DNA from: Chitinophagia bacterium
GTDB lineage: Bacteria; Bacteroidota; Bacteroidia; Chitinophagales; Chitinophagaceae
Reading direction: 5' to 3'
Assembly (NCBI GenBank): GCA_010027295.1
Contig: RGVM01000044.1
Span: 1 to 10,489 of the forward strand
Length of the DNA stretch: 10,489 nucleotides
Shown here piece after piece: positions 8,844 through 10,489 of this stretch. The position numbers and the translations under genes were made by a program. The first letter of the stretch is position 1; each line of letters begins with the position of its first letter. The notes beneath the pieces were generated by a model. That model did not search any database and was not told the DNA's origin. It saw only the letters and a list, made by a program, of their open reading frames with translations.

Positions 8844-9584
8844 ATGGCACTCTTCGACTCCGGAAACCCCGCCCTCACAGAAAAGGCGTTGCAGAAATCC
8901 ATCACAGGAAGCGGTGACACCATGACCTTCCGCGGCACCCTGAATAAGTTCGGCTTCCTCTTGTTCATGCTCATAGGCACCGCCTTCTACACATGGAAGG
9001 CCTACTTCGGAGGCCAGGAACCCGGAGGCTACATGATTGCCGGTGCCATCGGCGGCCTGGTCATCGCACTCGTCATCGCCTTCAAGCAGACCTGGGCACC
9101 TTACCTGGCACCTGCCTACGCACTCTTCGAGGGACTGCTACTGGGCGCCCTCTCTGCCGTCATGGAGCACGCCTATGACGGCATCGTGACACAGGCCGTC
9201 CTTCTCACCTTCGGCACCGTCATCGGCATGTACCTGCTCTATTCCTTAAAGGTCATCCAGGCGACCGAAAGGTTCCGTACCATCCTCCTGTCCGCGACCA
9301 TGGGCATCGCCTTTTTCTACCTCATCGCATTTGTCCTCGGCTTCTTCGGGATACGCATCCCCTTCATCCACGAGGGGTCCGTTTGGGGCATCCTGTTCTC
9401 CCTGTTCGTCGTGTGCATCGCGGCCCTGAACCTGATACTCGACTTCGACAGGGTCGAGCAGGGCGTGGCCCTGGGCGCCCCCAGGCATATGGAATGGTAC
9501 TGTGCCTTCGGCCTCCTCGTGACCATCGTATGGCTGTACATTGAGATCCTGAGGCTGCTGGCCAAGATGTCCAGCCGCCGCTGA
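8844..9584 (+). CDS. Bax inhibitor-1/YccA family (BaxI_1) membrane protein
   Basis: A 246-residue integral membrane protein with a short cytoplasmic N-terminus (MALFDSGNPALTEKAL, then GDTMTFRGTLNKFG) and seven hydrophobic segments. These lie near residues 34-52, 61-80, 87-109, 115-135, 146-170, 178-198 and 218-240. The sequence NLILDFDRVEQG (196-207) between the sixth and seventh helices and the final EWYCAFGLLVTIVWLYIEILRLL segment are characteristic of the BaxI_1 branch. Family members are inner-membrane channels or stress-protection proteins; some bacterial relatives conduct Ca2+ in a pH-dependent way through an Asp pair, and Asp200 and Asp202 here are candidates. No partner gene is adjacent. 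The stop lies 10 bp before the first of two candidate RNA elements, which could be part of the 3' untranslated region of this gene. Confidence 0.92.
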   Translation: MALFDSGNPALTEKALQKSITGSGDTMTFRGTLNKFGFLLFMLIGTAFYTWKAYFGGQEPGGYMIAGAIGGLVIALVIAFKQTWAPYLAPAYALFEGLLLGALSAVMEHAYDGIVTQAVLLTFGTVIGMYLLYSLKVIQATERFRTILLSATMGIAFFYLIAFVLGFFGIRIPFIHEGSVWGILFSLFVVCIAALNLILDFDRVEQGVALGAPRHMEWYCAFGLLVTIVWLYIEILRLLAKMSSRR

Positions 9585-9594
9585 ACCCGTCATG

Positions 9595-9813
9595 CATCGG
9601 GATCGGCCGACATCGACCGATTTCGATGAATGGCCCCAGGGATTCGATGTGCGGTTTCCGAAATCGTAAATGTCCTGTTAATTTTACGTCGTCGAAAGGG
9701 GGTAACTCCGAAGACAATACACGAGAGTCAAAAAGCCCGCAGGGCAAAAGATACAAACACGGATGGTTTGAGAACCGGACCGGCACCCATGGTGACCGGT
9801 CCTTTTCTATTTT
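9595..9813 (+). ncRNA. Candidate structured RNA, copy A
   Basis: First of two related elements. In order it shows: a 5' hairpin CATCG/CGATG with inner ATCGG/CCGAT (9595-9628); a stem CGTAAA/TTTACG (9665-9670 with 9683-9688), with TTTCGATGA at 9621-9629 able to pair with TCGTCGAAA at 9689-9697; a small GGG/TCC hairpin (9700-9709); GCCC-GCA-GGGC at 9735-9745; a block at 9750-9786 that matches copy B at 36 of 37 positions and contains CAAAC/GTTTG; and a terminator hairpin. The reading frame is not conserved relative to copy B, which argues against coding. It starts 10 bp after the BaxI_1 stop and may be an independent RNA or a 3' UTR-derived one. I do not recognise it as a known family. Strand is set by the U-tract. 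Confidence 0.65.
9777..9813 (+). terminator. Rho-independent terminator of RNA copy A
   Basis: GGACCGG at 9777-9783 pairs with CCGGTCC at 9796-9802. The stem continues as CACC/GGTG past one bulged A, around a CAT loop, and is followed by TTTTCTATTTT. Strong on the plus strand only. Confidence 0.85.
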
Positions 9814-9880
9814 ATCCATCCTTCTGAAACGCAGTCTGGAAGATGGTTTCCAGATACCTGTTGATTACCCCGCCACATGG

Positions 9881-10101
9881 CATCGTAAAAACACGAGATT
9901 GGAACCGCCTTTCGATGAAAGGGATCCATGCGTCGACAAGCGATTTCGAAAAACGTAAAACCCCCGCTACTTTTACGTCATCGAAAGCGGGTTATCCCGG
10001 GGACGAAACGAAACAGATAATAGGTCCTCCAAGGACTCACGATACAAACACGGATGGTTTGAGAAACGGACCGGCACTTCAAGTGCCGGTCCTTTCATTT
10101 T
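9881..10101 (+). ncRNA. Candidate structured RNA, copy B
   Basis: Second element, offset 289 bp from copy A in its 5' half and 291 bp in its 3' half. It shows: TTTCGATGAA at 9910-9919; a perfect hairpin ACGTAAAA/TTTTACGT (9953-9960 with 9971-9978), flanked by TTTCGA/TCGAAA (9944-9949 with 9981-9986); a CGGG-TTAT-CCCG hairpin at 9988-9999; GTCC-TCCAA-GGAC at 10024-10036; the near-invariant block at 10041-10077; and a perfect terminator. The hairpin at 10024-10036 occupies the place of the GCCC/GGGC hairpin of copy A; one C:G pair there has become U:A. No clear promoter was found in the 67 bp after the copy A terminator, so it could arise from its own weak promoter or by read-through. Family unknown. 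Confidence 0.68.
10068..10101 (+). terminator. Rho-independent terminator of RNA copy B
   Basis: GGACCGGCAC at 10068-10077 pairs perfectly with GTGCCGGTCC at 10083-10092 around a TTCAA loop, and TTTCATTTT follows. It is a plus-strand terminator with no U-tract on the other strand. Confidence 0.9.
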
Positions 10102-10228: not shown

Positions 10229-10489
10229 TCAGCTGTTTCTCGTCTTGAGGGTGCCGTCCCATACGGGCCTGCCTTGCAAGCGTCGTACGATGTACACTAC
10301 GGCGGTGAAGATGAAGAACAGCGGCCCCAGCAGGCCGAAGATCGAGATCCACCTGCCTCCGAAGAAGGCGGACATAGGCCGCTTCAGCCGCTCGGCCATC
10401 AGATACATGCCCGGCACCATGAGCAGCGTCATGAAGAATGCGAACATGAGGCCCCAGATGATGGTCCAGGACAAGGGCTTCCAGAACAG
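10229..10489 (-). CDS. RND-family efflux permease, C-terminal fragment
   Basis: The last 86 codons of a gene that begins beyond the right edge. FWKPLSWTIIWGLMFAFFMTLLMVPGMYLMAERL is the closing transmembrane segment pattern of AcrB/HAE-type resistance-nodulation-division transporters, with the usual P-L-...-T-I-..-GL start and V-P-..-Y-L end. After a loop (KRPMSAFFGGRW) a further hydrophobic helix ISIFGLLGPLFFIFTAVVYIV is present, followed by a polar tail ending RNS. That extra C-terminal helix is beyond what E. coli AcrB has. The protein would be an inner-membrane proton-driven pump working with a periplasmic adaptor and an outer-membrane channel, none of which is in the window. Substrate cannot be told from this part. 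Confidence 0.85.
   Translation of the reverse strand: MFWKPLSWTIIWGLMFAFFMTLLMVPGMYLMAERLKRPMSAFFGGRWISIFGLLGPLFFIFTAVVYIVRRLQGRPVWDGTLKTRNS

Follow-up and report, generated by a model that had tools for sequence, protein, structure and literature searches.

Tandem predicted small RNA genes with a phased upstream operator in a Chitinophagaceae genome, and their multicopy family

Two similar sequences lie head to tail in the genome of a Chitinophagaceae bacterium (G000 in what follows), and the question that they raise is what they encode. The window, that is, the whole stretch of 10,489 nucleotides that we analysed, had been given a preliminary description in which the repeat at 9595-10101 was read as two copies, each of about 220 nt, of a structured RNA element. 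The tandem arrangement holds: copies A and B (Table 1) are offset by 291 nt at a 3' block with 36 of 37 identical bases (9750-9786 and 10041-10077), share a 17-nt block that differs by a single G/A transition (9682-9698 and 9971-9987), both as had been described, and each carry the word TTTCGATGAA (at 9621 in A and at 9910 in B). They are 67% identical to each other, and the nearest relative of copy A is a G066 copy (73%). The length does not hold as that of an RNA, as the 220 nt comprise a promoter plus the RNA. The repeat is real and not the product of chance, because the same promoter-plus-RNA unit is found at E<1e-10 in 11 further genomes of the genus, three of which (G084, G072 and G079) are absent from the training alignment. 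We hold it rather probable that the window carries two paralogous genes for trans-acting small RNAs (sRNAs), activated by a LytTR regulator, whose conserved block pairs with target mRNAs; comparison of the copies supports the predicted ensemble of promoter, phased repeats, RNA of about 120 nt, hairpins, CGGAUGG block, terminator and multicopy family.

Table 1. Features of the tandem repeat and its neighbours (positions in the window)
Feature	Position	Strand	Basis
Upstream neighbour: BaxI_1 membrane protein (PF12811)	8844..9584	+	Pfam
Copy A operator: two TTCGAT direct repeats, TTCGA to TTCGA 21 bp (9622, 9643)	9621..9648	+	pattern match
Copy A promoter: TTTC at about -33, 20-nt spacer, -7 box TAATTTTA at 9679-9686	9655..9686	+	
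Copy A predicted sRNA, ~122 nt	9691..9813	+	start inferred as -7 box start +12
Copy A 5' hairpin	9698..9709	+	hairpin scan against shuffles
Copy A small hairpin, GCCC-GCA-GGGC	9735..9745	+	
Copy A conserved block, candidate seed ACGGATGG at 9759-9766	9750..9774	+	alignment
Copy A intrinsic terminator	9777..9813	+	fold
Copy B operator: TTTCGATGA and GTCGAC repeats, 22 bp start to start	9910..9937	+	pattern match
Copy B promoter: TTTC, 20-nt spacer, -7 box TACTTTTA at 9968-9975	9944..9975	+	
Copy B predicted sRNA, ~122 nt	9980..10101	+	start inferred from -7 box
Copy B 5' hairpin	9988..9999	+	hairpin scan against shuffles
Copy B small hairpin, GGTCCT-CCA-AGGACT	10023..10037	+	
Copy B conserved block, candidate seed ACGGATGG at 10050-10057	10041..10065	+	alignment
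Copy B intrinsic terminator	10068..10101	+	fold
Downstream convergent neighbour: C-terminal end of RND-type transporter, 86-aa piece	10229..10489	-	resemblance

Homologues, to which the preliminary description had looked for support, do exist. With a sequence-only model (R1) built from 22 copies (alignment A2), we found 26 copies at E<1e-10 in 12 of the 41 genomes of the genus, 22 of them training sequences and the other four comprising two of G084, one of G072 and one of G079; three cut-off copies (two of G084 and one of G072) are omitted from A2. These genomes carry between one and five copies each: five in G065, four in G060, three in G075, two in each of G000, G066, G083, G084 and G096, and one in each of G072, G076, G079 and G092. 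The window copies, being training sequences themselves, match at 9619-9813 and 9909-10101 with E of about 1e-30. G074 and G088 each carry a more distant member, which scores weakly with R1 (E of 5e-4 and 0.004) and was recognised by its seed, promoter and terminator. No member was recognised in 27 of the 41 genomes, several of them near complete (e.g., G053), and a seed match in G098 was not recognisable as belonging to the family.

Across the 396 genomes of the order, 67 match at E up to 0.01 and four below 1e-10, all four from this genus; the best of the remaining 63 reaches 5e-5, and at E<1e-10 no other genus appears, with the proviso that model searches above 40 genomes were run under strict filters, by which weak relatives were possibly missed. 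Of the loci of those weak matches, nine were checked for the seed word and nhmmer was run on 14; none looked like a member, and one of them (L199) has a seed with one mismatch and no operator. The word ACAAACACGGATGGTTTGAG leads to two loci, L027 (VGFQ01000003.1) and L028 (CAJBPC010000163.1), each with two tandem copies in surroundings like those of the window, and a looser word occurs in 7 of the 41 genus genomes and in 4 of 394 family genomes, all four of this genus. Among viral sequences, 26 stretches contain a 15-base word and none is a recognisable member (best nhmmer E of 0.002, over 22 positions), and the plasmid search gave no match; spread by phages or plasmids was rejected on these grounds. 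In line with the preliminary description, no known class (6S, tmRNA, SRP, RNase P, riboswitches or other Rfam families) is recognised: an Rfam 15 cmscan of the window at E up to 5 returned four weak matches, none of them within 9595-10101. The family was not found in Rfam or in the open-licence papers searched, in which the seed word occurs in a plant context only. What is new is the sRNA family with its operator; the kind of system is already known.

The 5' third of each copy looks like control DNA rather than RNA, with a Bacteroidota promoter of the housekeeping type and the form TTN-N20-TAnnTTTR. Spacings were measured on the ungapped sequence of every A2 copy (n=22). Only one of them, that of G092, lacks the TTCGAY repeats, though it has the promoter and the seed; in all the other 21 the first repeat starts exactly 58 nt before the start of the TAnnTTTR box. 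At the place expected for the second repeat, TCG is found in 21/21 and TCGAY in 16; TTN precedes the box by 20-21 nt in all 22 copies, with an exact TTG at spacer 20 in seven. Copies outside A2 (G088, G079 and G074) have TAnnTTTR at +58 in 3/3 cases, at a background of 0.0005 per position and with the boxes of G088 and G079 already noticed by eye before this count; one of the three has a perfect TAGCTTTG, and the second repeat is present in G088 and G079 and absent in G074. G076 has TAATTTTG, and both G076 and G088 have the textbook TAnnTTTG. Downstream of the box the distance to the seed varies between 75 and 97 nt. Such fixed spacing with drifting sequence upstream, followed by variable length downstream, is expected of promoter DNA and then an RNA gene. 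In Flavobacterium psychrophilum the TAnnTTTG box lies at -12 to -5, according to the available text of PMC9723704, which puts the predicted starts near 9691 and 9980. Judged by sequence, each copy has its own promoter and its own terminator and lies outside any operon leader, as is characteristic of an sRNA gene.

Upstream of this core promoter, the TTCGAY repeats, 21 bp apart, occupy about -70 to -40, with their starts near -70 and -48. For LytTR regulators, the available text of PMC2766830 gives 9-bp repeats with a 12-bp spacer, making 21 bp, and that of PMC4227749 places the centre of the AgrA repeats near -60. The layout of LytTR promoters, two direct repeats of about 9 bp separated by a 12-bp spacer and located upstream of the core promoter, is found here as well; in its geometry the operator agrees with LytTR response regulators, and by analogy the repeats are a likely activator site. 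No Bacteroidota LytTR motif appears in the passages and titles consulted for the operator. The window genome contains three LytTR matches, and one of them, a receiver plus LytTR protein (G000:C131), is a candidate for the regulator. It has one ortholog each, 59-79% identical, in G060, G066, G075, G083, G084, G088 and G096, and in G083, where this was tested, an HPt domain protein is encoded directly upstream of the LytTR gene.

Pairs of TTCGAY repeats at 21 bp adjoin the G075 member of this group (three pairs) and the G088 member, and not the other six; the G088 locus (G088:C11) was selected by the operator search itself and has no TAnnTTTR box 40-90 nt downstream of the repeats. In 40 LytTR loci chosen blind to the repeats, drawn from 84 LytTR matches and including none from G065 or G076, there are seven pairs at distances of 8-60 bp, of which three have the 21-bp spacing, all three at the G075 locus; in 107 control loci one pair of 19 has it. 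The association between the repeats and LytTR genes is suggestive only. It is accordingly a possibility of some weight, which we nonetheless place clearly below an even chance, that the sRNAs are as proposed and the TTCGAY repeats bind a regulator outside the LytTR family, since a 21-bp period suits other dimeric regulators too and little evidence connects the repeats with LytTR genes; on the opposite side are the 9+12 bp arrangement and the distance from the start site, which match LytTR activators as far as the cited texts describe them, and the phased repeats next to two LytTR genes of one ortholog group. Among the repeats of this type, at least three TTCGAY repeats in 21-bp phase lie just after a LytTR gene, on the opposite strand, at L146:1360-1430 (G075:C36), a further pair lies about 500 bp on (L146:1915-1950), and at L123:1744-1801 (G060:C1) phased TTTCGAT/GTCGAT repeats precede a sequence of another kind, which has a terminator-like hairpin and may be a further gene controlled by the same regulator.

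The predicted RNA would consist of a 5' hairpin, a variable linker, a small hairpin, the conserved block and the terminator. Copies A and B fold better than expected (z of -2.7 and -3.2; 0/200 dinucleotide shuffles as good). A compensatory change between the copies in the hairpin before the 3' block, GCCC/GGGC against GTCC/GGAC, had already been pointed out, and by the rule used a hairpin is indeed present there in 21 of the 22 copies, at a shifted position in some and missing in G065c, with stem variants that include ACCC/GGGT, TCCC/GGGA, AGC/GCT and AGGGG/CCCCT. Its total score of 190.5 compares with 115.9 (sd 15.0) in shuffles, and that of the 5' hairpin, which five copies lack, of 175.5 with 123.2 (sd 14.9); neither was reached in 500 shuffles, which kept the base composition of each copy and not its dinucleotides and in which hairpins were picked per copy, so that the result is support for the short hairpins and not proof. 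In a linker control, the observed total was reached in 16/500 shuffles, partly because the linker overlaps the second hairpin in shorter copies. The terminators proposed for A and B are present in both, and, by eye, a hairpin precedes the final T-run in 22/22 folds, with sequences that differ (e.g., in G092).

Between the small hairpin and the terminator, CGGATGG is conserved in 22 of 22 aligned copies, ACGGATGG in 18 and ACACGGATGG in 15; G079 carries CGGACGG in place of CGGATGG. In single-sequence folds the seed is unpaired with a mean of 0.55 (0.75 and 0.73 in the window copies), and at 0.3 or less in G096b, G060d and G076a, the last being the lowest at 0.24. A protein frame across the region would be at odds with an RNA reading, and no frame is common to all copies: 17/22 have no ATG, GTG or TTG reading frame through the seed within the predicted RNA, and of the five that do, three share one frame and two use others. 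A small peptide gene was rejected on this basis, and the copies are probably non-coding. In G088, three tandem ATATTGTTCACGGATGG units are followed by one terminator-like hairpin (L181:1240-1600, G088:C62), as if the seed had been multiplied.

In the mechanism that we propose, a LytTR-type response regulator would bind the repeats at about -70 to -40 and recruit RNA polymerase, and the RNA output of the copies would be pooled; the conserved block, which lies between small hairpin and terminator, would then pair with target mRNAs and alter their translation or stability. In Bacteroides, GibS (PMC7366714) and FopS (PMC11697453) pair near start codons, according to the available text of both sources, and by analogy start-codon pairing with the 3' block as seed is to be expected in this family. 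A search of 10 genomes for the 10-base word AAACCATCCG gave 232 occurrences, among them the sRNA copies, and 24 for the reversed word; the latter is of little value as a control, because a stop triplet lies within it and because the seed word, read on the other strand, probably spells common protein motifs. At 95 AAACCATCCG places among the matches listed, some of them sRNA copies or duplicates, many with an ATG within 100 nt, and with genes judged without orthology, a start-codon target common to them is not evident; in G000:C125 (L253), a site stands 13 nt upstream of an ATG.

The conserved block could instead act on a protein. CsrA sites present GGA in a hairpin loop, and this is resembled by the block of the window copies, which can form CAAAC-ACGGAUG-GUUUG with GGA in the loop, one such GGA by an unsystematic count. 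We consider it unlikely that the RNAs sequester a protein in the manner of CsrB/RsmZ, with CsrA or conceivably another RNA-binding protein, such as an RRM protein, as the partner: the CAAAC/GUUUG stem is not kept in distant copies, which have UUAAC/GUUUU. CsrA itself (PF02599) is over the cut-off in none of the 41 genus genomes, with a lone match below it in G088 that has an internal stop, and was detected in all the positive controls (E. coli, B. subtilis and T. maritima). This absence makes titration of CsrA unlikely, and a CsrA decoy was rejected on its account.

Base-pairing sRNAs remain our preferred reading also when the copies are considered as structured cis-acting RNAs of about 220 nt, 3' UTR or riboswitch-like, an explanation that we disfavour as very improbable. 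It draws on the BaxI gene closely upstream in the window and on the inverted repeats that exist in copies A and B; the preliminary description had read a long stem (TTTCGATGA with TCATCGAAA) as RNA structure under selection. In the 22 copies, this stem fares no better than chance: 66.3% of cells are paired against 66.1% in shuffles, and 441 of 500 shuffles reach its covariation score. Slid versions of the stem do pair less well (32-50%), as is expected of a structure derived from these very sequences. RNAalifold on the whole A2 alignment gives four pairs only, which link the two operator repeats and show no covariation, and the operator part folds no better than shuffles (413/500 at least as good). 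The long 5' stem was rejected as an RNA structure for want of covariation. An inner hairpin, GTAAAA/TTTTAC, was also rejected: its TTTTAC arm belongs to the -7 box, the opposite arm drifts, and the hairpin is missing in G076, G079, G088 and G092, though the promoter is retained there. Further against a cis-acting element are the invariant spacing and promoter boxes of the 5' third and the occurrence of copies at loci with different neighbours. The gene 3' of copy B is on the minus strand and convergent, so that the copies are not its leader, and in G083 the stretch between the BaxI gene and copy 1 has, by eye, a terminator-like hairpin of its own, complete with a T-run, which indicates that the copies there are not simply a BaxI 3' UTR. 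A stem without covariation and a rigid promoter and operator spacing together point to two sRNA genes of about 120 nt and not to two structured RNAs of 220 nt. The earlier interpretation is therefore partly supported: the short hairpin before the 3' block has support, and the 5' third looks like promoter and operator DNA.

The setting shared by many members comprises a gene of the pyruvate:ferredoxin oxidoreductase family, BaxI_1, sometimes a secreted protein, the sRNAs and, on their 3' side and on the opposite strand, AIM24 and then an RND transporter. Pfam confirms both the oxidoreductase and BaxI in the window, the oxidoreductase also in G096, BaxI and AIM24 in G092, BaxI in G076, AIM24 in G065 and G075, and ACR_tran in G084, the remainder being assigned by resemblance of ORF ends. 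In the window there is no AIM24 gene between the sRNAs and the transporter, and the transporter piece, with 0 Pfam matches, takes its name from resemblance to the G084 protein at the same place, which has the ACR_tran match. Shortly 3' of the BaxI stop codon lies a 12-bp inverted repeat (9595-9628, CATCGGGATCGG / CCGATTTCGATG), whose 3' arm includes the first operator repeat of copy A and which is without a T-run. Other copies are located between DUF4230 and PfkB genes (G060:C23 and G065:C264) or elsewhere, and runs of GTTCAACGTTAAACGTT-type repeats flank several copies in G060 and G065 (L109 and L115). Copies within a genome are often highly identical (89% in G083, 90% in G096, 87% for G060c/d), a likeness that, against the divergent pair of the window, suggests repeated duplication. 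That we are dealing with mobile or repetitive DNA of small unit size, with promoter and terminator and no RNA function, as the copies' tandem and dispersed occurrence, patchy presence and higher number in the two largest genomes (G060 with four, G065 with five) might indicate, is the least probable of the explanations, given that no inverted repeat bounding the unit is among the window repeats listed, that the main locus is common to several genomes, that CGGATGG stays constant at the core in spite of drift in the linker, and that plasmids give no match and viruses no recognisable member.

As regulated sRNA genes, the copies have counterparts in several known systems. RNAIII is a long, single-copy staphylococcal RNA that also encodes a peptide, whereas the family described here is short, multicopy and from Bacteroidota. 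The Qrr sRNAs of Vibrio are redundant paralogs under one response regulator, as is proposed here, and are regulated by LuxO with sigma-54 and depend on Hfq. Their regulator belongs to a different family from the one proposed here, and the window copies are without an Rfam match. The likeness to agr lies in the control of RNAIII, where, in the available text of PMC4227749, AgrA, a LytTR protein, binds two direct repeats with the centre near -60 and a long promoter spacer follows. The Qrr sRNAs are named in the available part of PMC11697453, and that of PMC7366714 reports no obvious Hfq or ProQ in Bacteroides. Closer in phylogeny is FopS of Bacteroides thetaiotaomicron, with multicopy sRNAs, housekeeping promoters and a shared conserved seed; as described in the accessible text of PMC11697453, its seed is in the 5' portion, whereas here the block sits towards the 3' end, ahead of the terminator, with a phased operator upstream, the two families being set apart by description and not by sequence. 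GibS from the same species, also compared by description only, resembles the copies in being intergenic, of about 145 nt, and in having its own promoter and a potential terminator, and differs in that its seed is the unstructured 5' part (PMC7366714, available text). Rfp18 and other sRNAs of F. psychrophilum are likewise conserved, independent sRNAs, from a Bacteroidota species whose principal promoter box is TAnnTTTG, and such an operator is not mentioned in the portion of PMC9723704 available for this comparison by description. We tentatively propose, at somewhat less than even confidence, that a LytTR regulator with an HPt partner directly activates redundant, short trans-acting sRNAs with a seed at the 3' end, which would form an independently arisen counterpart of agr-RNAIII and Qrr in Bacteroidota that expands by tandem duplication beside a BaxI gene.

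One lesson of this locus is that conserved promoter DNA can be mistaken for conserved RNA structure. The action of sRNAs in Bacteroidota is still known from few cases, to which a predicted multicopy family with a visible operator is now added; that the operator is visible makes its regulator open to direct testing, and the 21-bp-phased TTCGAY repeats may define a LytTR regulon in the genus.
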